Source of the DNA: a virus
Direction: 5' to 3' (one strand)
Virus record (IMG/VR): IMGVR_UViG_3300044985_000285
Location: 1 to 20,686 of that record
DNA length: 20,686 nt
Part shown: positions 3,121-17,133 of the stretch, one piece after another
Position numbering within the stretch: position 1 is the first letter of the stretch
Layout: every line of letters begins with the position of its first letter
Notes under the pieces: generated by a model
Told to the model about the DNA's origin: nothing
The model's input: the letters and a program-made list of their open reading frames with translations, nothing else
Databases searched by the model: none
Position numbers and translations under genes: made by a program

Positions 3121-3305
3121 TAGAAGACCTCGAAATCTTCAGCGAAGGGGCCTTCCGGGTAGAACTGAGGGGGCTTGTCCTTGCGTGCGATGATGGCCTT
3201 GAGCAGCATCGTCTTCTGGAACTCGTTCGGAGCGTTTTCGAGGTACTCCTCCAACTCCGCCGTCGTCACATCCTTGAGGTCCCGCATCTCGTTGGTGCCT
3301 GCCAT
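3120..3305 (-). CDS. Small acidic hypothetical protein, first gene after promoter P3
   Basis: A 61-residue protein starting at ATG 3305 behind AAAGGAAACCAAA. An in-frame ATG at 3338 coincides with the expected P3 transcription start, giving an alternative 72-residue leaderless form (MVNTRTAKETK plus the shorter protein). The sequence is acidic and probably helical (TTAELEEYLENAPNEFQKTMLLKA in two parts). The leader-encoded peptide and Shine-Dalgarno resemble those of the gene at 3918-4109. No function is recognised. It opens a seven-gene unit that ends with the SLOG gene. Confidence 0.7.
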   Translation of the reverse strand: MAGTNEMRDLKDVTTAELEEYLENAPNEFQKTMLLKAIIARKDKPPQFYPEGPFAEDFEVF

Positions 3306-3335
3306 TTTGGTTTCCTTTGCTGTCCGTGTGTTGAC

Positions 3336-3372
3336 CATGTGGTAACTATACCACACCTCCAGCGAGATGCAA
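3336..3372 (-). promoter_or_regulatory. Promoter/operator element P3
   Basis: Minus strand: -35-like TTGCAT (3367-3372), 16-bp spacer, -10 TATAGT (3345-3350) inside GTGGTATAGTTACCAC (3339-3354), then ATG at 3336-3338. The operator and -10 are identical to the other copies, but the spacer is divergent (CTCGCTGGAGGTGTGG) and there is no upstream ATTTTC dyad. It is tucked directly behind the stop codon of the gene at 3378-3536. Confidence 0.7.
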
Positions 3373-3377
3373 ACGCC

Positions 3378-3536
3378 CTACCGACCCAGCTCCTTCTTCG
3401 CCTGAGTCACGGCCTCGGCCATCGTCATCAGCGACGGACCGCTGTGCTGCCGGAGAATCTCCATCGCCAGGAAATGGACCTTGAGGCGATCATTGCCCCA
3501 CTGCGCGTCCCGGTCTGCTTGAGAAGTGTTGGACAT
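3378..3536 (-). CDS. Small hypothetical protein
   Basis: A 52-residue protein, ATG at 3536, with the ribosome-binding cassette GGCAAGGAGGCCGAAATG shared with the genes starting at 508 and 1175. The longer open frame upstream overlaps the neighbouring gene and is not credible. It has a polar N-terminus (MSNTSQADRDAQWGND) followed by a probable amphipathic helix. No family is recognised. It is the last gene of the P4 unit. Confidence 0.65.
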   Translation of the reverse strand: MSNTSQADRDAQWGNDRLKVHFLAMEILRQHSGPSLMTMAEAVTQAKKELGR

Positions 3537-3558
3537 TTCGGCCTCCTTGCCGGTGTTG

Positions 3559-3921
3559 TTATTCCGCTGCAATCTGAAAGATCTTCGTGATGATTGCAAG
3601 GCCCCGCACGTGCGGGATCGTCCCACTGGCGTTGAACCCGCGCGTGTTGAGAACGCGCCACTTACCACTCTTCGGAGTCGTCATGCTCAGTTGCAAGTCG
3701 TCCCCGAGAGAAACGCCCACCTTCTGGATGCGCGTCTTGCCCTGGACCCACACGCTAACCTGCCCGCCCGCCTTGGTGGTGAGCCGCATGTTTTCGGAGA
3801 GCAGCTTCACGAGCGACTGCTGTGGATTGAGCATGACATCGTGGCGTCGGATGAACTCCTCCAATTCCGCCAGAGCGCCGTCCAATTCCGCCAGCTCTTC
3901 TTGCTCGGCTGTTGCATTCAT
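3559..3921 (-). CDS. Hypothetical protein with coiled-coil-like N-terminus
   Basis: A 120-residue protein. The start at ATG 3921 overlaps the upstream stop by four bases (ATGA) and lacks a strong Shine-Dalgarno, so it is probably translationally coupled. The first 35 residues (TAEQEELAELDGALAELEEF and so on) are a likely coiled coil. The remainder looks beta-rich (GGQVSVWVQGKTRIQKVGVS, then LQLSMTTPKSGKWRVLN). No recognised domain. The layout suggests a small oligomeric protein, but this is inference. Confidence 0.7.
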   Translation of the reverse strand: MNATAEQEELAELDGALAELEEFIRRHDVMLNPQQSLVKLLSENMRLTTKAGGQVSVWVQGKTRIQKVGVSLGDDLQLSMTTPKSGKWRVLNTRGFNASGTIPHVRGLAIITKIFQIAAE

Positions 3922-4109
3922 CGTTGAACGCCGTTCCAAGCCGTGTAGTTAGGCTTGACGCGGGGGGTGTTGATGTTACGCGCCATCTCCACCAGCGCGG
4001 GGCTGAACGAGTTGTTCTCGTTCTTCGCGACGTACTCGACCAGCTCCTTGTCGGAGAAGGGCACGTTGAATTCTGCACGAAGGATCTTCACCAGTGCTGT
4101 CCGCGTCAT
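3918..4109 (-). CDS. Small hypothetical protein, first gene after promoter P4
   Basis: A 63-residue protein beginning MTRTALVKILRAEFNVPFSD, ATG at 4109 with AAAGGAAACCAAG before it. The frame is open to an ATG at 4142 at the P4 transcription start, giving an alternative 74-residue leaderless form starting MVKHNTAKETK, very like MVNTRTAKETK of the P3 gene. The central part (LVEYVAKNENNSFSPALVEM) is probably helical. No family is recognised. Confidence 0.7.
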   Translation of the reverse strand: MTRTALVKILRAEFNVPFSDKELVEYVAKNENNSFSPALVEMARNINTPRVKPNYTAWNGVQR

Positions 4110-4139
4110 CTTGGTTTCCTTTGCTGTGTTGTGTTTGAC

Positions 4140-4176
4140 CATGTGGTAACTATACCACACACAAGGGGGATGACAA
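4140..4176 (-). promoter_or_regulatory. Promoter/operator element P4
   Basis: Minus strand: -35 TTGTCA (4171-4176), one base from the TTGACA consensus, 16-bp spacer, -10 TATAGT (4149-4154) inside GTGGTATAGTTACCAC (4143-4158), ATG at 4140-4142. It has the best -35 box of the four copies and the full upstream dyad ATTTTC-N9-GAAAAT. Confidence 0.8.
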
Positions 4177-4181
4177 GCTTT

Positions 4182-4202
4182 ATTTTCGGATGAAGTGAAA
4201 AT
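4182..4202. repeat. AT-rich dyad ATTTTC-N9-GAAAAT upstream of P4
   Basis: Inverted repeat arms at 4182-4187 and 4197-4202 with a 9-base centre, five bases upstream of the P4 -35 box. Arm sequence, centre length and distance are identical to the copy upstream of P1, while the centre sequences differ, which is the usual picture for a protein-binding dyad or a hairpin. Confidence 0.45.
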
Positions 4203-4222
4203 AATTCTGGACACGCAAGAGG

Positions 4223-4678
4223 CTAGATAACTGCGTGAACCTCATGGAAGAGGACGATCTCGCGCGTGTCATAGGGCACGTCTTCGCGTGTTAGCTCCAC
4301 CGTTACCACGCCATCGAAACCCCTATTCAAGAGCATCAGACTGAGGTTGATCCCCGTTACTCGGTCAAACGCTTCGCTGAGCTGATGCTTCCAGGAGAAG
4401 CCATCATACCCGCATCCGTGATGAAGATTGAAGGGGATAACGAGGGGGCACTCCAACAGAGTCTTACCCTGCTCCCACCCGTGGCGGGAAATGTCCGGGT
4501 CGGGGTCGTGCAGCACATACCTCCCAACGGGTTCGATGTCCTGTTGGAATCGAGAGCCGAAGTCTTCCGCCCGATCCAGGATGTGCTTCCAGTTTAGGTG
4601 AACGGGCAAACCGGTAGAGAAGTGATGCCCGTACTCTTCCACCCCCATCCCTACCTTGGCCAGCCCCGTGAAGATCAT
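4223..4678 (-). CDS. Hypothetical protein, weakly ADP-ribosyltransferase-like
   Basis: A 151-residue protein starting MIFTGLAKVGMGVEEYGHHF at ATG 4678, with GAGGAGG at good spacing; a TTG at 4699 is an inferior alternative. The C-terminus (NRGFDGVVTVE then a linker and YDTREIVLFHEVHAVI) resembles the G-[YF]-D-G-[VI] strand and terminal E-I-V-x-F strand common in phage-encoded ADP-ribosyltransferase-like and related polyvalent-protein domains. The N-terminal R/H motif needed to confirm that family is not certain, so this is a low-confidence structural hint. It is the last gene before P4. Confidence 0.65.
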   Translation of the reverse strand: MIFTGLAKVGMGVEEYGHHFSTGLPVHLNWKHILDRAEDFGSRFQQDIEPVGRYVLHDPDPDISRHGWEQGKTLLECPLVIPFNLHHGCGYDGFSWKHQLSEAFDRVTGINLSLMLLNRGFDGVVTVELTREDVPYDTREIVLFHEVHAVI

Positions 4679-4695
4679 CTTGGTTCCTCCTCGAA

Positions 4696-4932
4696 TCAAT
4701 CAACAAAGCCTTCCGGGAAATGCTTGTCGAGTAGGGTCTGCACAATCTCCACCAGTTTCGGGGGATAGGTCTCTTGCGCGGCCACGGCCTTCAGGTCATC
4801 CCGAATCTCAAGCTTCTGCTCGCGGTACCGATTGCACTGGAACCGAGCTTGATCCCTCAGTTCCTCCGCGCGCTCCAAGGCGTACGTCAGATCCTTGATG
4901 TCCTTGGACTCCTCTTGCTTCGTGCCAGCCAT
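4696..4932 (-). CDS. Small coiled-coil protein, paralogue of the upstream gene
   Basis: A 78-residue protein. Two adjacent ATG codons (4935 and 4932) follow GAGGTG; the second gives better spacing and a start (MAGTKQEES) that parallels the neighbour's MAGELQ. Residues 12-55 form a likely coiled coil (ALERAEELRDQARFQ and REQKLEIRDDLKAVAAQ). The ending LVEIVQTLLDKHFPEGFVD matches the end of the gene at 4940-5137 (ILLVRHFPEITD). The two are tandem paralogues. Function is unknown. Confidence 0.7.
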   Translation of the reverse strand: MAGTKQEESKDIKDLTYALERAEELRDQARFQCNRYREQKLEIRDDLKAVAAQETYPPKLVEIVQTLLDKHFPEGFVD

Positions 4933-4939
4933 CATCACC

Positions 4940-5137
4940 TCAATCTGTAATCTCAGGAAAGTGCCGAACGAGCAGTATTGCCGCAGCGGCATCGGTTTCA
5001 ATCCTAGGCATCGAAGCGGTGGGGTGAGCGAGCGCCTCCAGGTCCGCTTTGATTTCGTTCTTCTCCTGCTTCAGTATCTCCTCGCGGAACCGCGATTGCT
5101 CAAGCAGTTCAGCCATCCGTTGAAGTTCCCCCGCCAT
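4940..5137 (-). CDS. Small coiled-coil protein, paralogue of the downstream gene
   Basis: A 65-residue protein with ATG at 5137 overlapping the upstream stop by one base and a GGGGGA-type Shine-Dalgarno nearby. It has a heptad-like stretch (LQRMAELLEQSRFREEILKQ and EKNEIKADLEALA) and the C-terminal motif HFPEITD. The order of conserved elements, RF-[RQ]-x3-x-[EQ]-x-K-x-EI-[KR]-x-DL-[EK]-A-[LV]-A and the HFPE end, is shared with the next gene. Function is unknown. Confidence 0.7.
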   Translation of the reverse strand: MAGELQRMAELLEQSRFREEILKQEKNEIKADLEALAHPTASMPRIETDAAAAILLVRHFPEITD

Positions 5138-5406
5138 CAGACGACCTCCACTTCAGGTACTTCAGGTTGCCGAGGAAGACTGTGGTCCTCATGTTCGTGG
5201 TCCACTCCGGCTTTGCAGAGGTCACATTCCAGTGCCCCCTCCAATTGAGCCACCGCTGCAATGAACTCTCTACACGTGCGGCAATGCAACAGCACGTGCG
5301 TCTTGGTTGCATAAGCATCCAATCCCCTGAACGGAACCTTGTTCTCGAAACAAGCCTTACACTTTAGGACTACGGCCTCTTCCCCATCGAGTTCTACTTT
5401 AGCCAT
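5137..5406 (-). CDS. Small protein with three CxxC motifs
   Basis: An 89-residue protein, ATG at 5406, one-base overlap with the upstream stop and an excellent Shine-Dalgarno (AAGGAGGGGTGATG). Three CxxC pairs are visible: CKAC (about 16-19), CRTC (about 43-46) and CDLC (about 61-64), followed by HEHEDH. Two of the pairs probably bind one zinc, as in zinc-ribbon proteins, with the third pair and histidines as a second site. No catalytic domain. It could be a nucleic-acid-binding or scaffold protein; this is inference. The C-terminal tail PRQPEVPEVEVV looks disordered. Confidence 0.75.
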   Translation of the reverse strand: MAKVELDGEEAVVLKCKACFENKVPFRGLDAYATKTHVLLHCRTCREFIAAVAQLEGALECDLCKAGVDHEHEDHSLPRQPEVPEVEVV

Positions 5407-5633
5407 CACCCCTCCTTGGTCATTCTGCCTACGTTGACTTGTTGCACTCGGCCCGCAGTGCACGCACATACGAGGTCGCGCGCATCCTCCACGGGCTCCA
5501 CGTGGATGTACCACCCAATCGAAGCCCCGATGTCTTTCGTGTCCTCCGCATGATTCTCACACACGAAGTCGGGGGCCTTCCCGGGCCAGAACCTCCGGTG
5601 AGTGACAGGTCGCTCACACTTAGGTTCGGTCAT
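5406..5633 (-). CDS. Small hypothetical protein with cysteine pairs
   Basis: A 75-residue protein whose ATG at 5633 overlaps the upstream stop by four bases. Shine-Dalgarno is weak, consistent with translational coupling. Motifs: CERPVTHRRFWPGKAPDFVC (residues 6-25) followed by ENH and later CAC, giving a plausible single zinc site of the C-x2-P-x2-H type. The family is not recognised. Confidence 0.65.
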   Translation of the reverse strand: MTEPKCERPVTHRRFWPGKAPDFVCENHAEDTKDIGASIGWYIHVEPVEDARDLVCACTAGRVQQVNVGRMTKEG

Positions 5634-6178
5634 AACAGGGGAATCCCAGACAGGTCCGCGCGATGCAACATCTTGCTCACCATGCTACTCATTCGATCTT
5701 CCCGCAGTGCCCATCCGACCTCAGGGGCCTCCCGCGCTTCTTGGATCACCATCAGCGACACGAGCACCGCCTGATTCTCTATGTCCCCGCCCGGGTACTT
5801 CCCCTCATCTGCGAGCTTCGTAATCAGGAACGCCGCAGCCAGCACCGCTTCCGCTGCATCCTCCGGGTTCGCGGCATCGAGCATGGAGTGGGCTACCCCC
5901 ATCGCAGCCAGGGTCATTTCTCCTGCCTGATCGGGAGGAATCCCGATGAGTGGTAGGGCAGCCGCCCTCGAAAGCAGTGTGGTGACATCCTCGCGCGCCT
6001 CCGCCCCCGCCTTCTCAATCAACGCCTTGAGGGCCACGTTGAGCAGTGCAGGCAACAGCACCGCCTTCCGCCGCTCTGTGGTCTTGGCTATCTGCCACAA
6101 CTCCTCCTGAGTATCCCGCCCCCGCTCAAACCCGAGCCCGGTGACGGAATCACCTTTCTTGCCCTTGATGATGGTCAT
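5630..6178 (-). CDS. Alanine-rich helical hypothetical protein
   Basis: A 182-residue protein starting at ATG 6178, which shares one base with the preceding TGA. After a short basic N-terminus (MTIIKGKKGDSVTGLGFERG) the rest is strongly helical and alanine-rich (for example AVLLPALLNVALKALIEKAG and AEAVLAAAFLITKLADEG). The hydrophobic stretches are interrupted by charged residues, so these are packed helices more than membrane spans. I recognise no family. Its place two small genes below the large terminase does not identify a role. Confidence 0.7.
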   Translation of the reverse strand: MTIIKGKKGDSVTGLGFERGRDTQEELWQIAKTTERRKAVLLPALLNVALKALIEKAGAEAREDVTTLLSRAAALPLIGIPPDQAGEMTLAAMGVAHSMLDAANPEDAAEAVLAAAFLITKLADEGKYPGGDIENQAVLVSLMVIQEAREAPEVGWALREDRMSSMVSKMLHRADLSGIPLL

Positions 6179-6363
6179 CAGGTCACCGACAAAGAGCAGT
6201 CAAGGAACTCCGCTCCCTTCCTGTCCAACAGGGCAAACAAAGCCCGCTCCCCGCCGTCCGCATCCCTGAGGGTATCTCGGAGATCTACCTCCAGCTCCAC
6301 GGTCTTACCGTCGGGAACATCCTCAAGAGTCCACATCATTGTCAAAACCACTGTCGCGCTCAT
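6178..6363 (-). CDS. Small hypothetical protein
   Basis: A 61-residue acidic protein (MSATVVLTMMWTLEDVPDGK start) with ATG at 6363 behind a strong AAGGAGGGAGC Shine-Dalgarno. The stop overlaps the next start by one base. Alternating hydrophobic residues near the start (VVLTMMWTL) suggest a beta strand. No family is recognised. Confidence 0.65.
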   Translation of the reverse strand: MSATVVLTMMWTLEDVPDGKTVELEVDLRDTLRDADGGERALFALLDRKGAEFLDCSLSVT

Positions 6364-6376
6364 GCTCCCTCCTTGG

Positions 6377-6559
6377 TCAGTCTACCCGGCTCCCGCCGAG
6401 GTCCCTGAGTTGGTGCCACACGTTTTCATCCATATCGTGCATGGGCACCATGACGTTGCGCGTGTCAGAATCGAGTGTGAAATGCTTGTCGTGGTCGATC
6501 ATCCAATTGATGAACAGTTGGGTATTGGTGTCAGACCAGAAAGCAAACTCGAACATCAT
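6377..6559 (-). CDS. Small hypothetical protein downstream of the large terminase
   Basis: A 60-residue acidic, aromatic-rich protein (MMFEFAFWSDTNTQLFINWM start). It overlaps the terminase stop by four bases (ATGA) and has GAGGAGG within the terminase end. Histidines and aspartates are frequent (IDHDKHF and HDMDENVWH). The family is not recognised. Confidence 0.65.
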   Translation of the reverse strand: MMFEFAFWSDTNTQLFINWMIDHDKHFTLDSDTRNVMVPMHDMDENVWHQLRDLGGSRVD

Positions 6560-8373
6560 TTTCGAGCCTCCTCTGCCTTCTCCATCTTCTGAACCAGGGA
6601 GCCCGGTATTGCACCCAACGGAATGCTATGGGTCACCCAGACCTCCCTCCTGCGGCTAATACCATACACGACCCCGGCGAGTGCGTCCGCGCAGTCTTTT
6701 GACCCGTTGGGACGATGGTCAATCTTCCCTTTCTGCGCATTCACTTCCAGCTTTAGGATCTCCTCTTGCGCACGCGCGTGCGCGGGAATCTGTACGCGAT
6801 CGTCATAAAGAGCCTGCTTGAAAACCGCATAGGGAAGAGGCGTCTTATCCATCGACACGTTGCCCACTGTGTACCCCTTGGTCTTGAGGATCTGCAAAGA
6901 GTCCACGCTTTGCCAGGAGTCGAACGTCACCCAGGACACCTTCACCTTTAGCTTCGAGAGGGTGTAGATCAGCGTGCGCACCTTCTCGAAAAGAATCTCT
7001 CCCCCACGCGGGGGCTTGATCTGGAGCACCGCGTCAATGTGAATCTTCGGCAGGATCTCCTTGTAATCCCCTCGATCCATCTCGGTGAACCCGTACACAC
7101 ACCCCACCGCAAAGCCACAGGAATCCGCGGTGAGCGCGAGGTCGATGTGAACGTACCGCTGGAACTCGGGGTACTGAATCAGATTGGGTTCCACGTGCAA
7201 CTTCAGGTCCTCGAAGTCCACGGCCTCCTGCACGAACAGAGAATCATGCCTCCCAAAGCAACCCACCACGCGCTCGGGTTCCATGATGAACGGGTGCAGT
7301 GCAGTCGTAGACACGCCCGCGATGTCGCGCAGTGCATTCAGGAGATCCGCCTTGAACTGGAGTGTGTACTCGACCGGGATTTCATGGACGAGGGCCTTAT
7401 CCTTGGGCAGCGGATGGTTCTCGTCAATCACGTACGGCTTGCGCGACTCATCTCCTACGAATACGCTGAACTTCTCGCCGCAGAACTTCCCCGGTCGGAT
7501 GTCCCACACCCTCTTATCGTAGACGAAGATGCGGGGATTCTCTTTCGCTTCATCCTGCTTGATGTCGGTGAACTGCCCGCGGTACCGCTTGGAGGAAACC
7601 AGACACAGCATCCCCGGCAAGTTCCCACCCAACTCGATGAACCGAGATTCCCGCCTACGAGCGATCGTGTTGTACGCCTCCACCGCTTGGTTGTACGTTC
7701 CCTCATCCGCGGCCTTCCGGCTCTTCTCGATGATCGCCATGAAGTTCAGCTCGTCAATGCACCCCCCGATCACGTTCTGTCCCAACGCCCCGGTAGACAC
7801 CCCCGAAATGGGCTTCACGATGATGCGCTTGGGGAACAGGAGCTTGGACTTGATATTCTTGTCGAAGGTGAAGTTGTGTTGGAAGTAAGGCGACATCTCA
7901 ATCATCGACTTGAAGCGGTCGTACTCCACATCCTTTGCCGTGCTGGCGGTGATGCTCTGGAACACGATCTCGATTTCCGATGTGGGGTCCAAACCGAAGA
8001 CTTCGTGTGGCTTGTCGTAGTGGCTGAGCACATAGAGCTGATACGCTTGCGTGTAGAGCGCGATCGTTGTCTTGCCCGACCCAATGGCCCCGGTCAAAAC
8101 CGCTTCCGTGTACTTCCCGGAATTCAGCTCCTCAATCGCTTTCATGCACTCCGGGTAGATGCGCCCCTTCGCGTCCATGTAGTGGGGGCTCTCAATGAAC
8201 TCCCGCACCCCCACAGGCGCAGACGTATGCTTCCGCAGGTTCCGACGTACCGCCTCAAGAAACGGAGCCCGTTTCTCCTCCGGTAGCTTCTCCGCCCGCA
8301 GGTTCGCCCTCTCCATCGCCGTCACTGTGTTCGTGTACGTGGGCAGGGAGTTGGGGGGTTGTTCCTGAGTCAT
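6556..8373 (-). CDS. terL: Terminase large subunit (DNA-packaging ATPase/nuclease)
   Basis: A 605-residue motor protein that translocates phage DNA into the prohead and cuts it. Walker A is GAIGSGKT (residues 95-102) and Walker B is VIGGCIDELN (201-210, Asp207/Glu208). The C-terminal RNase-H-like nuclease has the expected acidic triad: HIDLALTADSCG (Asp411), TFDSWQS (Asp485) and GSKDCADALAG (Asp560/Asp563). The start at ATG 8373 has GAGGTGATGG before it; the next in-frame ATG (8316) has no ribosome site. The chosen start creates a 119-base overlap with terS in another frame. The gene follows the small subunit directly, as expected. Confidence 0.95.
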   Translation of the reverse strand: MTQEQPPNSLPTYTNTVTAMERANLRAEKLPEEKRAPFLEAVRRNLRKHTSAPVGVREFIESPHYMDAKGRIYPECMKAIEELNSGKYTEAVLTGAIGSGKTTIALYTQAYQLYVLSHYDKPHEVFGLDPTSEIEIVFQSITASTAKDVEYDRFKSMIEMSPYFQHNFTFDKNIKSKLLFPKRIIVKPISGVSTGALGQNVIGGCIDELNFMAIIEKSRKAADEGTYNQAVEAYNTIARRRESRFIELGGNLPGMLCLVSSKRYRGQFTDIKQDEAKENPRIFVYDKRVWDIRPGKFCGEKFSVFVGDESRKPYVIDENHPLPKDKALVHEIPVEYTLQFKADLLNALRDIAGVSTTALHPFIMEPERVVGCFGRHDSLFVQEAVDFEDLKLHVEPNLIQYPEFQRYVHIDLALTADSCGFAVGCVYGFTEMDRGDYKEILPKIHIDAVLQIKPPRGGEILFEKVRTLIYTLSKLKVKVSWVTFDSWQSVDSLQILKTKGYTVGNVSMDKTPLPYAVFKQALYDDRVQIPAHARAQEEILKLEVNAQKGKIDHRPNGSKDCADALAGVVYGISRRREVWVTHSIPLGAIPGSLVQKMEKAEEARK

Positions 8374-8896
8374 CCATCACCTCGTACTCCACATCGAGTA
8401 TCTCTGCTTCCGCGTCATCCAACATCTTCTCAAAGTCATCAATCGAGATCGATACGTCACTGCGGTCATAGACGTTGACCTGGATCTCCGGGTTATCCTT
8501 CTGATCGAGGATCTGCTTGCCCAACCAGATCTGCATCGTCACATTGCCATCCTTCAACGCGGTATCGATCTGCTTCTTCCTCAGCAACCGTTGCGTCTTC
8601 GTGCGCCCGCGCTCCCATGCCTGCCGGTAGAGGGGTTCCTGCAACCGCCTCTTCATGGTCGAGTGCGATACGTTGAAGAAGGTGGCCGCCTCCAGGATGG
8701 TCAGGTTGAGCCCTGCCACGCTCTCCAACTCCTCCGGGGAGATCTCGATCTTGGATTGCCCGGATTGGAGCGTGGACTTGACGGCCTTCGGGTATGCCTC
8801 GTTCATCACCTGGAGTGCGTCCGCGGTACCTAGCTCCTTCAAGTCCGCAGCCAGACTCTCCATCTTCAACTTCAAGGCGCTCTTCTCATCAGCCAT
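8255..8896 (-). CDS. terS: Terminase small subunit
   Basis: A 213-residue protein that should recognise the packaging site and recruit TerL. A helix-turn-helix is visible at about residues 66-85 (TILEAATFFNVSHSTMKRRL), followed by basic helices and a central strand region (EIQVNVYDRSDVSISIDDF). The C-terminal 40 residues are low complexity, rich in Gly, Glu and Asp, and are encoded in the region that overlaps terL. ATG at 8896 has GAGG upstream and overlaps the FolE stop by eight bases, tying the packaging genes to the modification operon. The family call rests on HTH plus position next to terL. Confidence 0.85.
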   Translation of the reverse strand: MADEKSALKLKMESLAADLKELGTADALQVMNEAYPKAVKSTLQSGQSKIEISPEELESVAGLNLTILEAATFFNVSHSTMKRRLQEPLYRQAWERGRTKTQRLLRKKQIDTALKDGNVTMQIWLGKQILDQKDNPEIQVNVYDRSDVSISIDDFEKMLDDAEAEILDVEYEVMDDSGTTPQLPAHVHEHSDGDGEGEPAGGEATGGETGSVS

Positions 8897-9764
8897 GTTG
8901 CCTCGCCAAGCTCAGGAACTCCGACCTGCAATGGGCCTCGTCCTTCATCACCCCCAACAGGCAAGAGGTAACCGTGGCCCCTTCGCTTCGGATTCCCCTC
9001 ATCCCCATGCACAGGTGAACCGCCTGGATCACACACGCCGCCCCGATCGGTTCTAGGTACTGCATCATCGCCTCTGCGATCTGCTGCGTCATCCGCTCCT
9101 GCACCTGCAACCGCGCGGCATAGCACCTCACCAACCGTGCAAGCTTGGACAATCCGACCACCATTTCCCCCGGCACGTAGCCAACTGTGGCGGTGCCGTG
9201 GAAGGGGAGCATATGATGCTCACACAACGAGTAGAAGGGGATGTCACGGACCACCACCATTTCATCACACCCTACGTCGAACTGTGCAGCGAGGATCTCA
9301 ACCGGGTCCTGATCGTACCCTTGAGTCATTTCCTTGTACGCGCGGGCCACGCGCGCAGGCGTATCCTTCAGTCCCTCCCGCTCCGGGTCTTCTCCCACAA
9401 ACTGGATCAGGCGGGTCACTGCATCCTCCACCGATCCCGCAACACTCTCTTCCCACGGAAACACCAGCCACCCAAGGTCGGGGTCTTTGAGCTTGTTGAA
9501 CAGCACTACGAAAGGCTTGCCAGGGAATATCGCTTTCCAGTGCTTGCACGTGCGTCCACTGTCGATCAAGTCATCGCAGATGTAATCCGCCTCCTCCGGG
9601 TTATCCACCGGAATCCCAAGCAGAGGCGCAATCGCACACCCGCCCCGCGGTACCCCGAAGACCTTGCGGGTATCCGTATTCCCGAAGTAGTTGTCCATCT
9701 CTATTCGCACGCGATGCGCTTCCCCGCGCAGGGCATCCCACGTCACGATGGTTGTGTGCCTCAT
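8889..9764 (-). CDS. folE: Phosphoribosyltransferase-GTP cyclohydrolase I fusion
   Basis: A 291-residue two-domain protein. The start is ATG 9764, in an ATGA overlap with queE and behind CTCTGGAGAG. Residues 1-110 are a purine phosphoribosyltransferase-like domain: VPRGG (38-42), the PRPP loop ICDDLIDSGRT (62-72) and WLVFPWE (99-105). Residues 115-291 are GTP cyclohydrolase I: GLKDTPARVARAY (131-143), SLCEHHMLPFHG with zinc ligands Cys181 and His184, GYVPGEMVVGLSKLARLV, QERMTQQIA, and HLCMGMRG with Cys252. FolE opens GTP to dihydroneopterin triphosphate, the first step to preQ0. The fused PRTase may salvage free guanine to GMP, possibly guanine displaced from DNA by DpdA (inference). Confidence 0.93.
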   Translation of the reverse strand: MRHTTIVTWDALRGEAHRVRIEMDNYFGNTDTRKVFGVPRGGCAIAPLLGIPVDNPEEADYICDDLIDSGRTCKHWKAIFPGKPFVVLFNKLKDPDLGWLVFPWEESVAGSVEDAVTRLIQFVGEDPEREGLKDTPARVARAYKEMTQGYDQDPVEILAAQFDVGCDEMVVVRDIPFYSLCEHHMLPFHGTATVGYVPGEMVVGLSKLARLVRCYAARLQVQERMTQQIAEAMMQYLEPIGAACVIQAVHLCMGMRGIRSEGATVTSCLLGVMKDEAHCRSEFLSLARQHG

Positions 9765-10378
9765 CGCACTCTCCAGAGCTTGTGATCCTGTGTCGAGAGC
9801 GCCCACCGGGGGTTCTCCAAGCACAGCTTCACACACCAGTCCAAGGTCTCCCGCAGTACCGTCCCATCCGGCTCAAAGGCGGGGCTGATGAAGTGATGCA
9901 CGGCTTTCAAGTTCGGCTTGGGAATCGCCTGCCTCACATTCCGCACATACCTCAGCTCATTGATGATGGCGTAGGTCTCCCGCACCCGCAGCGTATGCTC
10001 CGCGGTCTTGGGGGAACAGGACACCCACTGAATCCCGATGGGCAAAGCCACCGTCCCGTTCGTCTCGATTGCGATAATCCAATTGGATGCCAGGAGTGCT
10101 TCGATCAGCTCATTGTCCACCTGCAATCCAGGCTCCCCACCACTGAGGACAACCCTGTGCGAACTGGACTCAAGTCGCTCCAGCGTGTGCACGATCTCTT
10201 CCGCGGTCATGGGGTAACCCGAACTGAAGTCCGTATCGCAATCGAACCCCTCCGGTCCATCCGCGCGGCAGGTGAGGTTGCAGCCTGCAAACCGCACCCA
10301 ATGGTTGACCGTTCCTTTGCGCGCTCCCTCACCCTGGAGCGTCGGACCGAATATCTCGTTCACCGTGTACGTCTTCAC
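9761..10378 (-). CDS. queE: 7-carboxy-7-deazaguanine synthase, radical SAM
   Basis: A 205-residue radical-SAM enzyme converting 6-carboxy-tetrahydropterin to 7-carboxy-7-deazaguanine. The N-terminus has the QueE signature FGPTLQGEG (10-18). The [4Fe-4S] cysteines are Cys33, Cys37 and Cys47 (CNLTC, then FDCDTDF), a spacing of C-x3-C-x9-C that differs from the canonical C-x3-C-x2-C but is of the variable-insert kind known in QueE. The SAM-binding segment VVLSGGEPGLQ (76-86) and the strand IAIETNGT (102-109) follow. The start is GTG 10378 with GAGGGG upstream; an adjacent ATG two bases upstream leads straight to a stop. The gene overlaps folE by four bases. Confidence 0.93.
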   Translation of the reverse strand: MKTYTVNEIFGPTLQGEGARKGTVNHWVRFAGCNLTCRADGPEGFDCDTDFSSGYPMTAEEIVHTLERLESSSHRVVLSGGEPGLQVDNELIEALLASNWIIAIETNGTVALPIGIQWVSCSPKTAEHTLRVRETYAIINELRYVRNVRQAIPKPNLKAVHHFISPAFEPDGTVLRETLDWCVKLCLENPRWALSTQDHKLWRVR

Positions 10379-10418
10379 ATCGATCCCCTCATGCGCAACT
10401 AATGTGCAACTCTCCCAC

Positions 10419-10907
10419 CTAAATCACATTTAGAGCCGCAGCGTCTAGGTCCAGAGGTCGATACTCTGCCCCGCAATTCGGCGTCTCCCACACCACCACA
10501 GACACCACCCGCAACCCGTAGTCCGTGGGGTCGCCCTCGTCATCGTGCGTGAGAAGCGCAGTCGCCACGTTGAATAGGTGTTCGGCCAGGTTCTCCGCGG
10601 TCGGGGCCTCCTCCATGATGAAGAAGGGGCGCAATCCCTCCTTCACTGCTTCCTTCGAGAAGTTCCGCATGAACCCATCGCTCCCTTGGATGATGAATGT
10701 GTGATCCCAGTGCTCGTCGATCCAGGTCCCCACGTATTGCTTGATGAGCCCGAAGTCCACAACGAAGCCTTCCTTGGTCAGCTCGTTCGCTTCGCACGTG
10801 ATGTCCACCTTGTACCGATGGCCGTGCGGGGTCTTACACTTGGACTCGTGCAGGGGCACTCGATGCCCTGCGTCGAACTCCAATCTGCGCGTGCATGTGA
10901 TGCTCAT
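10419..10907 (-). CDS. queD: 6-carboxy-5,6,7,8-tetrahydropterin synthase
   Basis: A 162-residue QueD/PTPS-family enzyme that converts dihydroneopterin triphosphate to 6-carboxy-tetrahydropterin, step two of preQ0 synthesis. The start is ATG 10907 with AAGGAGGAGGC; it shares an ATGA overlap with gat-queC. Zinc ligands His15 (FDAGHR), His28 and His30 (PHGHRY) are present, as is catalytic Cys24 (ESKCKTPHGH). Further family motifs are VVDFGLIK, DEHWDHTFI, PTAENLAEHL and VWETPNCGAEY. The length is somewhat above that of E. coli QueD (about 120), through insertions in the middle, as in other QueD/QueD2 variants. Confidence 0.95.
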   Translation of the reverse strand: MSITCTRRLEFDAGHRVPLHESKCKTPHGHRYKVDITCEANELTKEGFVVDFGLIKQYVGTWIDEHWDHTFIIQGSDGFMRNFSKEAVKEGLRPFFIMEEAPTAENLAEHLFNVATALLTHDDEGDPTDYGLRVVSVVVWETPNCGAEYRPLDLDAAALNVI

Positions 10908-12160
10908 GCCTCCTCCTTGAATACCGGGTCTGTCTTTCCACATCGCTCAAACGCCGTGCGCCGCATGAAGCAGGGTCCACACTTCCCGCAGTGCACGTCA
11001 CCTCCTTTGTAACAGCTCCACGTATGCTCCAACGGAGCCCCCAGATCCAACCCGTACTGCACGATCTCCCGCTTCACCATCTTGCAGACCGGAGCCTCAA
11101 TCCGCAGCTCGTACCCTGCGCTCACCGCATAGTCAGCCACCTTGTCCAGGTAGAGGAACATCTGCTCCTCATTGTCCGGGTACGCTCCGCTCTCCTCCAG
11201 GTTGTTTCCCAGCGCCACGATGTGATAGCCATGCGCTTCCGCGTATGCTGTGGCGTATCCGACCATCACGAGGTTCCGCGCAGGGACCCACTCATGGGCA
11301 AACTCCGCTCCTGCGACCGGACCTGCTATTTCCGCCCCTGCTCTGAGAAGAGTGCTTCCCCCGATGTGGGCGTAGGGTAGAGGCATGATCTCCCACTGCA
11401 CCTGAACATTGAACTGCTGGTAGAGGTTCTGTGCGATCAGCGGGATACATTTCGCCTCTCGCTTGGCCGCATGGCATCCGTAGTCCATGTGAAGCAGGCA
11501 CACGTCATATCCGAGTGCCGCGTAGTGGGTCGCCACCACCGTGCTGTCCAATCCCCCGCTTGCCACCACGAGCGCACGCTTGGCCGTCTTTCGGGGAATC
11601 TCCATCACCCTCCCCGTACGCAGATCCATCGCCGTGTAAGGCTTCAAGGCTACGGGAGCCTGTCCGAAGGGCATCACATCCTCAAAGTGACTGGCCAGGG
11701 AGCTGAAATACCGGGCGTCCCCTGGACCCTCCCAATAGTGGATCGGCTTGAAGTTGCAGGCGAGATAGACGGTCCCGTTCGCAGCCATCGCTATCGCGTA
11801 ACTGCCTTTGATTTGTTCCAGGGAATGAACGAACGCTTCCAAGGTGCTCGGGTCCAAGATGCGGGGCAGGACCATGCTGTCCACCTCGTCATCCAGAATG
11901 CCGAGTTCCATGTCATTTGCGATCGTCCCATTGTGCACAACCCCGTCATACGGTTGCAGGGGTGCGCGCTCCATCTCCGGCGTAGGGGCTGCCCTCCAAT
12001 TCCCCAGCACTGCGGTCATGTTGGTGGTCAAGAGGTCGTACTTCACCTGCCGACCCCCATCCCGTCCGCGGTCTTTCGCGCGCTCTGAAATCAGCCGCAG
12101 CGGCACCTCCCATGTGGGACCTTTCTCTTCCCGGAACAGCACTCCGTAGATTGAACACAC
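10904..12160 (-). CDS. gat-queC: Glutamine amidotransferase-QueC fusion (Gat-QueC)
   Basis: A 418-residue fusion. The start is GTG 12160, behind CTGGAGGACTGACC, because it places a cysteine at residue 2 (MCSIYGVLF), the catalytic nucleophile of class II glutamine amidotransferases once Met is removed. A longer ATG frame (12196) would bury that cysteine. The amidotransferase domain shows NWRAAPTPE and VVHNGTIAND (76-82 core). The QueC domain starts near residue 195 with the PP-loop ALVVASGGLDSTV (SGGLDS at 201-206) and ends with zinc cysteines SCYKGGDVHCGKCGPCFMRR (383, 391, 394, 397). QueC makes preQ0 from 7-carboxy-7-deazaguanine and ammonia. The fused Gat domain is known from phage 9g-type systems that make deoxyarchaeosine. 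Confidence 0.95.
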   Translation of the reverse strand: MCSIYGVLFREEKGPTWEVPLRLISERAKDRGRDGGRQVKYDLLTTNMTAVLGNWRAAPTPEMERAPLQPYDGVVHNGTIANDMELGILDDEVDSMVLPRILDPSTLEAFVHSLEQIKGSYAIAMAANGTVYLACNFKPIHYWEGPGDARYFSSLASHFEDVMPFGQAPVALKPYTAMDLRTGRVMEIPRKTAKRALVVASGGLDSTVVATHYAALGYDVCLLHMDYGCHAAKREAKCIPLIAQNLYQQFNVQVQWEIMPLPYAHIGGSTLLRAGAEIAGPVAGAEFAHEWVPARNLVMVGYATAYAEAHGYHIVALGNNLEESGAYPDNEEQMFLYLDKVADYAVSAGYELRIEAPVCKMVKREIVQYGLDLGAPLEHTWSCYKGGDVHCGKCGPCFMRRTAFERCGKTDPVFKEEA

Positions 12161-12162
12161 GG

Positions 12163-13122
12163 TCAGTCCTCCAGACTGTCTAGGGTCTTCTTCCATCGAT
12201 GCTTCATCTTGCGCTCAAAATCCAGATACCACTCCACCTCACTGCGCAGGTTCACGCTCCCCCCACGCAAGCCCGGGTTTGCCCCACCGAGGCTCTTCCA
12301 GTTCCCCCACGCCGCGGGACCCTGCTCCCAAGAGGTGGAATCACAGCTATGGAAGGGGACGGCCATGAGCACGTTGGTAGCCATGACCCCAAAGCCGTGG
12401 ATCTTCTTGGGCCACACACGGGCAAAACACTGTCGCACCCAGGCTTCGAGACTCTTGGGGTTCTGCCCAACCATGCCCCCGAGTGCGATCTTCGGATAGG
12501 TCTCTGCGAGGTGCATCAGCGCATCTTCCGGCGCTCCGTAGTGGAAGGTCGGGATAGCCTCTACCCCCTGCTTCCACATCTCCTCCGTGTTGGCCAGCGT
12601 ACCTTTCCAATCCCCGATCACGTCCAGGGAATACACTTCCGTGAGTAGTGGGTCGGATGCGAGCTTCTGTTTACAGCAGTCGATATAGTCCTGGAGCACA
12701 ATGGGCTTCCCGCTGTTCTCCGCGGTGAACGCCCCGCTATCCATCACCCAATCTCGGAAATGAAGGTGCTTTCTCATGCTCTCGAATCCGTTCAAGTAGA
12801 CATAGGAAACGAGCAGTGCAGGCGCGGGGTCTTGGGAGAGCCCCTTCTTGATTGCTTCCGGGGGTCCACACAAGGCCAGCCGCAGGTTCGTCATCTCTTC
12901 CTCTCCGATATGTTCATGCAACTCCTCCACGCTGGCTGGTTCCAGGCTCGGATCTTCCAGACGTGCACGCGCGTGCACAGATCCGAATGCCCGCATGTGC
13001 TTCAGGGGGTTGCGGAACCCTGAAACCAGCCGCATGTCTGTCACCTCAGTTTCCCCTCCCAGCGTCTTCACGATCCGCGGGTGCGCGTTGTTGTGCGCGA
13101 TTGCGAGTCGCAAGGTCGTCAC
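12163..13122 (-). CDS. dpdA: DpdA-like DNA deazaguanine transglycosylase
   Basis: A TGT-superfamily enzyme expected to exchange guanine in DNA for a 7-deazaguanine base. The catalytic core follows the tRNA-guanine transglycosylase pattern: DWVMDSGAFT (Asp128, compare DSGGF of TGT), VYSLDVIGDW (Asp167), IALGGMVGQNP (compare GGLAVGE) and FHSCDSTSW (Asp261). Numbering uses GTG 13122, which overlaps the ParB stop in a GTGA arrangement and gives 319 residues. ATG 12894, with GGAGAGGAAGAG before it, would give 243 residues starting just before the first barrel strand (MTNLRLALCGPPEAIKKGL), so the true start is uncertain. It lies two bases upstream of gat-queC. The family call rests on core motifs plus the complete preQ0 operon next to it. 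Confidence 0.88.
   Translation of the reverse strand: MTTLRLAIAHNNAHPRIVKTLGGETEVTDMRLVSGFRNPLKHMRAFGSVHARARLEDPSLEPASVEELHEHIGEEEMTNLRLALCGPPEAIKKGLSQDPAPALLVSYVYLNGFESMRKHLHFRDWVMDSGAFTAENSGKPIVLQDYIDCCKQKLASDPLLTEVYSLDVIGDWKGTLANTEEMWKQGVEAIPTFHYGAPEDALMHLAETYPKIALGGMVGQNPKSLEAWVRQCFARVWPKKIHGFGVMATNVLMAVPFHSCDSTSWEQGPAAWGNWKSLGGANPGLRGGSVNLRSEVEWYLDFERKMKHRWKKTLDSLED
12963..12978. repeat. 16-bp palindrome GTGCACGCGCGTGCAC, copy 1
   Basis: A perfect palindrome of alternating purine and pyrimidine bases inside the 5' part of dpdA. An identical copy lies at 16763-16778 in the MuF gene, in a different codon register. A related palindrome, GCGCACGCGCGTGCGC, lies at 6768-6783 in terL. Confidence 0.6.
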
Positions 13123-13733
13123 TTCGTTTTCTGGTTCCCCCACTCTGCACACAGTTGGGTGAGGGCTTCCGCGTGCGAAAGCTTCTGCTGGTGTACGAGT
13201 TGAAAGCTCGTAAGCATATCCTTGACGGTGGACCACTGATCGGCACTGAAGCTGACCACATGGGCGCTTCCCTCATCCTTGTCGGGGAGATCGGTTTTCT
13301 CGTCTGGGGAGAAGTCCGCTTGAAGCAGGATTTCCAGTTCATGTCCCTGCCACCCCAATTCAGTGAAGTCAATCCCCTCCTCTTGCAGGTCCAGGAACTC
13401 CTCGGTCACCCGGCTGTAGTCCCACCCGCTGAGTTCGGCCAGTCTATTATCTGCGAGGCGATACGCCTTCGCTTGCCCTTCGGAGAGGTGATCCAGACGT
13501 ACCACGGGGACGGTCTTCATCCCCAATTCGGAAGCTGCCAATAGGCGGCCATGCCCCGCGAGAAGGACCCCCTGCTTGTCCACCAGGACGGGGTTGTTGA
13601 ATCCGAACCGCTCTATGCTGCGAGCGATGGCATGTACCTGCACTTCATCATGGATCTTGGCGTTCTGCGCATAGGGGACCAGCCCCTCCACGGGTAACTG
13701 CTCCACCTGCTTTGCTCCATCGGTCACTGCCAC
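13119..13733 (-). CDS. ParB/Srx-fold nuclease-like protein
   Basis: A 204-residue protein with a GTG start at 13733. The N-terminal half is a ParB N-terminal domain: VEGLVPYAQNAKIHDEVQV, IARSIERFGFNNPVLVDKQG, then the signature LLAGHGRLLAASELG (GHGR at 60-63) and KAYRLADNRLAEL. Such solitary ParB-like proteins are frequent beside phage terminase and head genes, often with nuclease or NTP-binding activity; true plasmid-style partitioning would need a CTP-binding protein with a helix-turn-helix, which is not evident here. The C-terminal 80 residues are unassigned (SFSADQWSTVKDMLTSFQL). It overlaps dpdA (GTGA) and may bind DNA connected with modification or packaging (inference). Confidence 0.88.
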   Translation of the reverse strand: MAVTDGAKQVEQLPVEGLVPYAQNAKIHDEVQVHAIARSIERFGFNNPVLVDKQGVLLAGHGRLLAASELGMKTVPVVRLDHLSEGQAKAYRLADNRLAELSGWDYSRVTEEFLDLQEEGIDFTELGWQGHELEILLQADFSPDEKTDLPDKDEGSAHVVSFSADQWSTVKDMLTSFQLVHQQKLSHAEALTQLCAEWGNQKTK

Positions 13734-13837
13734 CCTGATCCCCTTTTTATAAAAGGACCACTTCGGTCGCAGGCGCTCATCACAAGATACTGGATCTGTT
13801 TGCCGCGGAGTCCGCCACGGTGCGCCTTGCCCTTCAT
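13724..13837 (-). CDS. Possible 37-residue basic peptide upstream of the ParB-like gene
   Basis: A short frame from ATG 13837 to TGA 13724-13726, overlapping the ParB GTG start by ten bases. It reads as a plausible basic peptide (MKGKAHRGGLRGKQIQYLVM start, FIKRGSGWQ end), and such overlap is typical of this genome. The Shine-Dalgarno is weak (GAGGGT) and partly in a small hairpin (13842-13858, CCGAC/GTCGG). It may be a true gene, a translated leader coupling to the ParB-like gene, or chance. Confidence 0.35.
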   Translation of the reverse strand: MKGKAHRGGLRGKQIQYLVMSACDRSGPFIKRGSGWQ

Positions 13838-14127
13838 GGCCCCGACCCTCTCAGTCGGTTTCAGGCATCGTACCTCGGGGGGAGGTTGGGTGCAACGAGG
13901 AGGAGGGGGGACACGTTATTTTGGATTTCTGAAACTATTTTAGAAATCCCTGTAACGCCCCCCAATATCAGGGAATTGGATTATCGATAATGAGGGATGA
14001 TAAACCTGGGGTGTCGAGGAAATGTGTAGAGGGGGGATCGCAACGTGGGGGGTGAACCCAGGAGGAGCCTTACCTATGATTGGGATAGGCGGTGTCCTTG
14101 CCAGGTAGTCCCCCACGCTGCGACAAA
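13838..14127. other. Non-coding region with AT-rich dyads and G-runs
   Basis: No convincing gene on either strand in 290 bases. Visible structure: an 8-bp inverted repeat GGATTTCT/AGAAATCC with an 11-base centre (13923-13930 and 13942-13949); the 12-bp palindrome ATTATCGATAAT (13980-13991); runs of G on the plus strand (13877-13882, 13888-13890, 13905-13910); and on the minus strand a weak promoter-like pair TTGGGG-N17-TAAAAT overlapping the first dyad. It is the only sizeable gap in the right half of the window, upstream of the ParB and modification operon, so it probably holds that operon's promoter. Confidence 0.5.
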
Positions 14128-15269: not shown

Positions 15270-15532
15270 CAAGCATTCTGCAACTTACGGACGGCTGCGT
15301 TGAATTGCTTCTTCGTCACTTGCTCCGTGCCACTCTCCGAGAAGGAACCGGAACCTTCCACAGGAACCCCAGTGGACAACCCCACGACATCATTCCAGCT
15401 CGCCGCCGCATGAGTCATCTTCTTTTTCTTGAAGTCCCAGCCGAGGAGAAGCGCACCCCCGCTCTCGGTCTTCTCGAAAGACACGGGCTTTTCACCCACA
15501 ATGAAATACAGAGGGAGGTTGAGTCCCATCAT
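15269..15532 (-). CDS. Small protein coupled to the MuF-RelA/SpoT gene; possible immunity partner
   Basis: An 87-residue protein starting at ATG 15532 in an ATGA overlap with the MuF gene and behind a GGAGG Shine-Dalgarno. Text includes LPLYFIVGEKPVSFEKTESG, LLLGWDFKKKKMTHAAASW and a C-terminal helix VTKKQFNAAVRKLQNA. No homologous family is recognised. Polymorphic-toxin MuF genes are often followed by a small immunity gene, and the tight coupling fits that, but a structural or chaperone role is equally possible. Confidence 0.7.
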   Translation of the reverse strand: MMGLNLPLYFIVGEKPVSFEKTESGGALLLGWDFKKKKMTHAAASWNDVVGLSTGVPVEGSGSFSESGTEQVTKKQFNAAVRKLQNA

Positions 15533-17133
15533 GTGCCTCCTAGTATTTCGGCCATCACTGCTCCGTAGGATACCTGTTGGATAGACACTAGATCGTCGAT
15601 CTCTCTCAGCTCCAGCAAGGTAAGCTCTCGTCCGTCAATTTGGGCCTGATCGCTAATCGTCCGCTGCCTCTCGTACAAGAGGTGATTCAGCTCTTTGGTG
15701 TTCCTCATACTGGACACATGTAGTTGAAGCTCCACCACATGCCCTCCTGGCATTTCCACCCCGAGGATGATGTCCCTATACCCTTCCGGGGTGGGGTTAA
15801 AGAAGCGATCGTTGATTCGCACAATACTGAGCACAGTGTCCGTGAGGTAGTCAAGTGTTGCGTACACTCCCTCCAGGGTATTGAACTCCAACGTCGCGCG
15901 AGAGATGTCAGTGATACCCGCAAAATCTCCACCATACCGGGCCTCCGCCTTCTCAATAACCCGAGCCCTGCTCTTGAGACCATCGACGGGGAACACTGCG
16001 GTCCCACCCGTGTCATCCGCGGCCTCTGAAACGGCTTGCTTAAATATCGGATCGATTTCCGCGGCCTGTTCATACAAGACATCCAAATCATCTGTGTTCT
16101 GCTTCGCTTTCGATCCTGTGAGGTCACTGGCCACCCCTTGTGAAATGGCTTCGTACTCCGAGGGGATCTCATTCACCACGGACTCTACAGGGGCCAAGGC
16201 CGGGTCCGCAGGGGCCGTGAACTTCGAGAAGCCCACTACCTCTACGCTATGCACGGTTCCCACGGGTACAAGGATTCCCCTGCACAGAGGGTGATAGGGT
16301 GGCGTGTCCCAACCCATATCCGCGAGATGTTGGTCTGTCATCCCCGCGAGGTTCCGCAAGCCCTGCTTCGATTGATTCGGAAACGGGGCTGCGCCCTTCA
16401 GTTCATCCCCTGTCATTTGGAGTTGTTGGAACAAGCGCCGTTCAGCCTGCTCCACACTGAAGGTCTTACCGTGCATCCCACGACACACAGGACACGTCCG
16501 GTTATCCATCACTTCACTGACTTGGAAGGTGGTAACGCCGGTCTCTATGGCCTCGGCCACATAACCATACGATACAAGGCGAGAAGTTGCGAGGTTCGCC
16601 CCCGCATCCATCAACCCACTACCCGTCCCCATCACCGCGGCATTCATCTGCCGAGCCAGCTCTTGATCGGCCACCTTGTAGAGCGTGTCGAAGACAATAC
16701 TCCCGTCCTCAATCTCGCCCTCCTGCTCCTGCCGCTCCCGCTCAGCCATCTGGGACACGACCGTGCACGCGCGTGCACTTATTGCCTTCTGACTGGCGAC
16801 GACGATGGTTTGCAGTTGGATCACCGCGAGGTCTACGGCCTTGGGGATCTCCCCTCTCTTGAAGAGGTCGGTACTGCGCACGGTCCCGCGAAATAGCCCC
16901 GCACCCAAGAGCATCGCTTGGAGGAAATGGGTCTCCAGCTTGGGACGTACCTTCTTCGCGACGGTGACCGTATCAATGCCCTGATTGGCCACCTTCTCCG
17001 CTTCCGCGAAGTCCCCACCCACAACCAAGGTTTCTAGTTCCTTGACGGTCTCTTTGTTGGCCTTTGCGAATTCGGTTTTTAGAGCACGCTGGAGAGATGC
17101 TTCCAGAGTGAGGAATGATTCAACGCTCGGCAC
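15529..17133 (-). CDS. MuF-type minor head protein with C-terminal RelA/SpoT-like domain
   Basis: A 534-residue two-part protein. GTG 17133 is chosen: it lies just after the portal stop with AGGAAG upstream, whereas ATG 17208 would overlap the portal by 74 bases and add a basic stretch that looks like shadow translation. The middle is the phage Mu F/SPP1 gp7 minor head domain, with VMDNRTCPVCRGMHGKTF (about 208-225) and PPYHPLCRGILVPVG (about 278-292). From about residue 363 the protein matches a RelA/SpoT nucleotide synthetase: LKSRARVIEKAEARYGGD, ITDISRATLEF (DxxR), GYRDIILGV, VVELQLH (E-x-Q) and NHLLYERQR. MuF proteins carrying C-terminal toxin domains are known; enzymatic activity here is inferred. 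Confidence 0.87.
   Translation of the reverse strand: MPSVESFLTLEASLQRALKTEFAKANKETVKELETLVVGGDFAEAEKVANQGIDTVTVAKKVRPKLETHFLQAMLLGAGLFRGTVRSTDLFKRGEIPKAVDLAVIQLQTIVVASQKAISARACTVVSQMAERERQEQEGEIEDGSIVFDTLYKVADQELARQMNAAVMGTGSGLMDAGANLATSRLVSYGYVAEAIETGVTTFQVSEVMDNRTCPVCRGMHGKTFSVEQAERRLFQQLQMTGDELKGAAPFPNQSKQGLRNLAGMTDQHLADMGWDTPPYHPLCRGILVPVGTVHSVEVVGFSKFTAPADPALAPVESVVNEIPSEYEAISQGVASDLTGSKAKQNTDDLDVLYEQAAEIDPIFKQAVSEAADDTGGTAVFPVDGLKSRARVIEKAEARYGGDFAGITDISRATLEFNTLEGVYATLDYLTDTVLSIVRINDRFFNPTPEGYRDIILGVEMPGGHVVELQLHVSSMRNTKELNHLLYERQRTISDQAQIDGRELTLLELREIDDLVSIQQVSYGAVMAEILGGT
16763..16778. repeat. 16-bp palindrome GTGCACGCGCGTGCAC, copy 2
   Basis: Exact second copy of the palindrome at 12963-12978. 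In this gene it encodes part of SARACT, whereas in dpdA it encodes part of VHARA, so the identity is not explained by shared protein sequence. Confidence 0.6.

Follow-up and report, generated by a model that had tools for sequence, protein, structure and literature searches.

The modification operon and its genes

We analysed a 20,686-base fragment of a viral genome, IMG/VR record IMGVR_UViG_3300044985_000285, referred to here in its full length as the window. The minus strand, on which all the genes discussed lie, carries at 8889-13122 five consecutive, coupled genes for the synthesis of a 7-deazaguanine base and its predicted insertion into DNA, the last of which joins GTP cyclohydrolase I (FolE) to a phosphoribosyltransferase (PRTase) domain resembling Gpt. 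The possible role of this domain in recycling guanine is the main subject of this study. The genes of the operon and its two flanking genes are as follows.

12163-13122, minus strand: dpdA, predicted DpdA-type DNA-guanine transglycosylase, 319 aa (PHROG, profile, structure model)
10904-12160, minus strand: gat-queC, fusion of class II glutamine amidotransferase and 7-cyano-7-deazaguanine synthase (Pfam, PHROG, motifs)
10419-10907, minus strand: queD, 6-carboxytetrahydropterin synthase (Pfam PTPS 6e-32, PHROG 2389 5e-39, TIGR03367 9e-25)
9761-10378, minus strand: queE, radical SAM 7-carboxy-7-deazaguanine synthase (TIGR04508 3e-35, PHROG 2076 4e-26, alignment)
8889-9764, minus strand: fifth gene, Gpt-like phosphoribosyltransferase fused to FolE, 291 aa
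13119-13733, minus strand: parB-like gene, upstream of the operon (PHROG 620 3e-50)
8255-8896, minus strand: terS, terminase small subunit, downstream of the operon (PHROG 309 2e-5)

All five genes were found, tightly overlapping, where a first-pass annotation of the sequence had placed them. Overlaps of 4 bases join parB to dpdA, gat-queC to queD and queE to the fifth gene, and the 8-base overlap by which the operon had been said to be linked to terS is present as described. Most of the operon gene boundaries are backed by ribosome-binding sequences at the start sites: dpdA starts at GTG 13122 (its overlap with parB reads GTGA), Gat-QueC at GTG 12160 behind a GGAGG site, queD at ATG 10907 (an ATGA overlap with gat-queC), queE at GTG 10378, the fifth gene at ATG 9764 with a GGAG site (an ATGA overlap with queE) and terS at ATG 8896. 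The start of Gat-QueC had been set at 12196; initiation at 12160 yields the Met-Cys2 of class II amidotransferases.

Family E-values for QueC, QueD, QueE and FolE range from 1e-19 to 1e-92 (Pfam, PHROG and NCBIfam models), which rules out chance for the gene identities, and the initial assignments of DpdA, Gat-QueC, QueD, QueE and FolE were each sustained by family models, profiles and motifs. That of FolE was correct but incomplete, the N-terminal PRTase domain having been overlooked. Catalytic motifs are intact across the operon except for the cysteine spacing of QueE, in which the three cluster cysteines are present as C-x3-C-x9-C, versus the usual CxxxCxxC or Cx14CxxC, in a protein with a good family score; we take this unusual spacing as a reason for caution and not as a contradiction. 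Gat-QueC (Pfam QueC 8e-50, PHROG 10428 5e-92) retains Cys2 (MCSIYG), the Arg motif NWRAAP and HNGT (HNGTIAND) in its amidotransferase half, and SGGLDS and the four zinc cysteines Cys383/391/394/397 in its QueC half. It is 42-46% identical to the Gat-QueC of phage 9g and, over phage Gat-QueC proteins such as those of 9g and R7M, about 37-44% identical, which, together with the conserved amidotransferase motifs, agrees with the earlier view of this fusion as the version found in 9g.

DpdA required more sensitive comparisons. The protein matches PHROG 887 (E 7e-31) and also PHROG 7068, and is placed by PHROG with phage queuine tRNA-ribosyltransferases. It had no Pfam match and, by single-sequence phmmer, no match in the PDB, where only a profile of 72 relatives (A8) found the solved DNA-guanine transglycosylase 7ui4 (E 7.8e-8). 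The TGT-type fold that had been anticipated for 12163-13122 was borne out in part: the predicted model is a barrel with a core pLDDT >90, whose nearest BFVD viral models are phage queuine tRNA-ribosyltransferases, while the best matches in the PDB were other TIM barrels, none of them a TGT by name. Residues D128, D167, H242 and D261 are invariant in the 72 relatives, and the putative catalytic aspartates D128 and D261 sit in DSGAF and CDSTSW motifs within the core (residues ~95-275). By these sequence features 12163-13122 matches a DpdA-type transglycosylase. The N-terminal extension of ~93 aa (window 12844-13122) has a base composition resembling that of coding sequence, matches no Pfam family and is modelled with low confidence; its beginning, TTLRLAI, recurs as TNLRLAL where the core begins.

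FolE, QueD, QueE, Gat-QueC and DpdA are therefore encoded together, as in the 9g-type pathway to 2'-deoxyarchaeosine (dG+), and the presence of a five-gene DNA-modification operon is near certain. DpdA and Gat-QueC of 9g have been shown to put dG+ into plasmid DNA, by a mechanism taken as base exchange by Hutinet and colleagues (PMC6884629). By analogy, a base made from GTP by FolE, QueD, QueE and Gat-QueC is very probably exchanged into the phage DNA by DpdA, most likely giving dG+ at part of the guanine positions and protection from restriction.

The PRTase-FolE fusion and its distribution

The fifth gene is read as one uninterrupted frame from a start codon and ribosome-binding site of its own, and comprises two domains.

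9450-9764, minus strand: residues 1-105, Gpt-like phosphoribosyltransferase domain (PHROG 8995, profile, motifs)
8889-9428, minus strand: residues about 113-291, FolE domain (Pfam 2e-70; fold match 1wm9, TMt 0.93)

Misassembly of one contig cannot account for the fusion, since a second contig repeats the stretch with 99.9% identity across 11,060 bases (window 2892-13951). The N-terminus of the fusion matches PHROG 8995 (phosphoribosyl transferase, 2.5e-9), and a profile built of fused domains alone, with no Gpt included, finds XGPRT structures (5xtk, 3e-12); an earlier profile that included E. coli Gpt was discarded as circular. The predicted model has two domains (mean pLDDT 94.7), and a Foldseek search with it returned only FolE among the matches listed, which is not by itself a test of the PRTase fold.

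The N-terminal domain resembles E. coli Gpt in its IVTWDxL start, the RGG pyrophosphate loop, the DDLIDSG loop for phosphoribosyl pyrophosphate (PRPP), the purine-side Lys and the W-x-x-FPW end. Comparison of 57 divergent fusions shows DDxxDxGxT, the PRPP motif, and the second Gly of RGG to be invariant (100%), with the purine-side K conserved in 93% and W in 95%. In established Gpt and HPRT structures this Lys contacts the O6/N7 side of guanine, and the flexible loop of Gpt closes over the active site. The beta-hairpin bearing this catalytic loop is absent from the window domain and from 57/57 fusions, for which reason we call the domain Gpt-like and not Gpt. On this pattern of conservation, the fused phosphoribosyltransferase site is under selection, with its lid gone.

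Among isolates, the fusion occurs in Queuovirinae and relatives, including Pseudomonas, Xanthomonas, Stenotrophomonas, Variovorax, Sphingomonas and Vibrio phages; the isolate records checked give GTP cyclohydrolase as its sole annotation. In IMG/VR it was found in 39 of 80 loci fetched by FolE and 28 of 80 fetched by a Queuovirinae-type QueE; of the 145 non-redundant FolE rows, 58 are fused. In a marine group retrieved through QueE, 63 of 80 loci have a separate PRTase gene, mostly 0-70 bases from folE. Separate PRTase genes were also found within window-like operon orders in some contigs (L299, L301, L302) and beside folE in other phages, some of which retain the flexible-loop hairpin. A FolE tree, quick and not careful, implies ~24 switches of the fused state, of which well supported branches require at least 8, and the PRTase domain has therefore often been gained or lost. 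Alignments spanning a wide range of QueE or PRTase sequences proved too divergent for scanning, and IMG/VR scans with E. coli Gpt and the phiST PRTase gave no useful sample.

Independently of fusion, the domain was linked to the pathway. Setting aside host fragments and two unannotated faecal scaffolds, a search of 50,697 phage records with E. coli Gpt retrieved only phages with 7-deazaguanine genes, namely those of the Cellulophaga phiST type, Flavobacterium immuto and Brevundimonas phages. PRTase similarity was the sole criterion in retrieving 24 IMG/VR contigs; FolE, QueD or QueE lay within 10 kb in 14 of them and a DpdA2-like gene was present in a further 4, against a baseline of FolE or DpdA matches in <1% of phage records; the samples consist of related sequences and these counts are consequently not independent events. 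In the IMG/VR samples, all fused loci that no contig end interrupts also have DpdA; the 8 fused loci without it, at first sight exceptions, are each truncated on the side where DpdA would lie. A transglycosylase homologue is encoded by all five non-fused isolate lineages examined (immuto, phiST, StAshley, F379 and BUCT-ZZ01). Those of immuto, StAshley, phiST (weaker, 8e-17) and Campylobacter F379 were found through the DpdA2-like family A6, the StAshley match being by construction since its protein is a row of A6; profile comparison connects this family to DpdA (probability 96.5%, E 9e-10). Searches of whole phage records with PHROG 887 and Pfam TGT returned nothing, the latter not even in 9g, and are no test of absence. 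The domain, fused or free, thus tracks the 7-deazaguanine pathway and also accompanies a DpdA-type transglycosylase in every case in which the operon or genome was complete enough to inspect. We also considered the PRTase as a replacement for DpdA in phages lacking it, as IMG/VR loci with a separate PRTase gave no match to an initial DpdA model, and rejected this, most of these loci carrying a distant DpdA2-like gene.

Several of these homologues are currently annotated as hypothetical proteins. The Campylobacter dADG phages have been listed as lacking DpdA (Hutinet 2019, PMC6884629). In Campylobacter phage F379, the 258-aa hypothetical protein F379_130 (L276:4463-5236) shares 44% identity with the protein annotated as DNA-guanine transglycosylase in immuto, matches the A6 profile with E 2.7e-73 and has homologues in 14 Campylobacter phage records, making it a candidate for the missing DpdA enzyme of this group. 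Similarly, the hypothetical proteins CGPG_00065 of phiST (L274:10861-11640; 7.7e-17 against A6) and StAshley_00090 (L269:1680-2480) lie beside QueD/QueE genes and look DpdA2-like; PHROG 20335 and 19058, labelled 'unknown function', would be transglycosylase families. Synechococcus phage BUCT-ZZ01, whose operon reads queE-Gpt-queD-folE, encodes shortly after folE a hypothetical protein (L279:15161-16411) whose family is annotated as queuine tRNA-ribosyltransferase in Stenotrophomonas and Xanthomonas phages.

Possible roles of the PRTase domain

Different scenarios might explain the association of a Gpt-like domain with FolE. In the one that we favour, FolE, QueD, QueE and Gat-QueC would convert GTP to a 7-deazaguanine base, which DpdA would swap for guanine in the phage DNA, so that each modified base would free one guanine. 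This guanine would be joined to PRPP by the Gpt-like domain, giving GMP, which host guanylate and nucleoside-diphosphate kinases would raise to GTP, the substrate of FolE, refilling the drained pool. Guanine salvage is the simplest role because the Gpt-like domain is tied to FolE and found with transglycosylases, whose base exchange frees guanine. We rate as about an even chance that the domain recycles DpdA-released guanine toward GTP for FolE, and the broader proposal, that phages exchanging guanine for 7-deazaguanine carry a minimal Gpt-like PRTase, fused to FolE or adjacent to it, that closes the loop between exchange and synthesis, appears equally balanced. At levels of modification such as those of 9g (about a quarter of G), we estimate that ~ten thousand guanines would be freed per genome of 80-100 kb, and that the amount freed over a burst would be comparable to the GTP pool of the cell. 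The fate of the guanine released by DpdA is not discussed in the literature that we searched; a PRTase tied to FolE in many phages would provide an answer and add a hidden member to the pathway. That literature, from which Cui 2023 and Crippen 2019 (Campylobacter phages) were missing, holds no description of the PRTase-FolE fusion or of guanine recycling in these phages. A gene of Campylobacter phage F379 is already annotated 'purine phosphoribosyltransferase / queuosine biosynthesis protein', so that the link between PRTase and pathway has been suggested by others.

Several observations weigh against this recycling. Since the flexible-loop hairpin is missing in all fused copies, catalysis is not assured; as GMP needs two kinases before it reaches FolE, the fusion would provide no direct channelling of product to substrate. 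The domain is not essential, given that many DpdA phages do without it, including about half of the sampled DpdA loci as well as 9g, R7M, Quesadilla and Megan, and the remaining 6 of the 24 PRTase contigs had no linked gene within 10 kb. In addition, because the FolE tree requires at least 8 switches of the fused state, the fusion may partly reflect modular reshuffling.

The loss of the hairpin from every fusion while the PRPP-binding loop is invariant would fit a sensor, binding PRPP or a guanine nucleotide and tuning the activity of FolE, with the other operon genes acting as in 9g. Other regulators built on the phosphoribosyltransferase fold exist, and in those 58 of 145 FolE rows the domain's fusion partner is the enzyme that opens the pathway and sets its flux. 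We nonetheless consider a sensor unlikely: conservation of the purine-side Lys and Trp is almost as high as that of the PRPP loop, and other phages encode the domain on its own, in a gene adjoining folE, in some cases with the loop hairpin still present. Ordinary purine salvage, with guanine and xanthine drawn from degraded host DNA into the general supply of nucleotides and the position in the operon due to chance or convenience, is what Gpt enzymes perform in bacteria, and many phages carry genes of nucleotide metabolism; it would not, however, predict that Gpt-like genes are confined to 7-deazaguanine phages among isolates, nor their fusion to FolE, and we hold it to be somewhat less probable than a sensor.

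The domain could instead make a nucleotide of preQ0 or of the archaeosine base, leading to a dNTP for the polymerase in parallel to DpdA. In phiST and StAshley, genes for ribonucleotide reductase and nucleotide kinases do adjoin those of the PRTase, and a modified-dGTP path has been left open for phages thought to lack DpdA (Hutinet 2019, PMC6884629). Yet the PRTase phages examined, including the Campylobacter Firehammervirus once called DpdA-less, encode a transglycosylase homologue, which makes a second route unnecessary, and the guanine-contacting purine-side Lys is 93% conserved; such a route has, in our view, only a slim chance. Finally, that the whole pathway boosts a queuosine precursor for host tRNA and not for DNA is barely credible, considering that the operon includes a DpdA matching the DNA-specific family, and that Gat-QueC of 9g failed to complement a queC mutant for queuosine (PMC6884629). 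Recycling of released guanine accordingly remains our preferred role for the domain.

Genomic setting and comparison with known systems

The window terminase is nearest to those of Stenotrophomonas DLP5-type, Vibrio SIO-2-type and Rhodobacter RcZahn phages, with genomes of 80-100 kb. In DLP5 and RcZahn, parB immediately precedes a small gene and terL, and searches of both genomes for QueE, DpdA and DpdA2-like genes were negative; because these relatives have no operon between parB and the terminase genes, that of the window resembles a cassette inserted at the parB-terS junction. ParB, whose similarity is weak (27% over 69 residues), was also considered as a member of the modification system, and this was unsupported, as parB adjoins the terminase genes in the same relatives lacking the operon.

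Three further genes of the window deserve mention. The C-terminal 240 aa (15529-16251) of a MuF-like head protein have by eye the look of a RelA/SpoT-type nucleotidyltransferase (ITDISRATLEF, EGYRDI, ELQLH), with no Pfam match; a family A DNA polymerase (19064-20584) gives weak matches, far below cut-offs, to aminoadenine-type DpoZ models; and a small protein (1480-1926) has a weak SLOG/YpsA-like match.

Enterobacteria phage 9g (Nonagvirus) shares all five steps with the window, encoding FolE, QueD, QueE, Gat-QueC and DpdA. In contrast, its FolE of 204 aa has no PRTase domain, its gene order is different, and its operon adjoins polymerase and clamp genes, whereas that of the window adjoins terS. 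The order parB-dpdA-queC-queD-queE-folE-terS-terL is identical in the preQ0 operon of the cluster B mycobacteriophage Quesadilla (Rosebush type), and the operon and its link to terS are thus of a known, ordinary kind. Quesadilla is not among the listed closest relatives of the window terminase; its QueC has no amidotransferase domain and its FolE no PRTase, while the window has both. Microbacterium phage Megan carries a similar gene run next to terL.

The same fusion (about 50% identical), a QueC of Gat-QueC length and an adjacent DpdA are found in the Queuovirinae (Nipunavirus JG054, PaMx25 and NP1, and Xanthomonas DoCa3), although in the order queE-queC-queD-PRTfolE-dpdA, which differs from that of the window. 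In Flavobacterium phage immuto and marine contigs, a PRTase lies directly before folE, together with QueD, QueE and a transglycosylase; unlike in the window, it is a separate gene, and the transglycosylase belongs to the distant DpdA2-like family. Lastly, the RGG, DDxxD(S/T)G, Lys and W..PW motifs of the window domain align with those of E. coli Gpt (XGPRT, PDB 1a95), from which it differs in being a domain of 105 aa, fused to FolE, that has neither the central hairpin nor the flexible loop.

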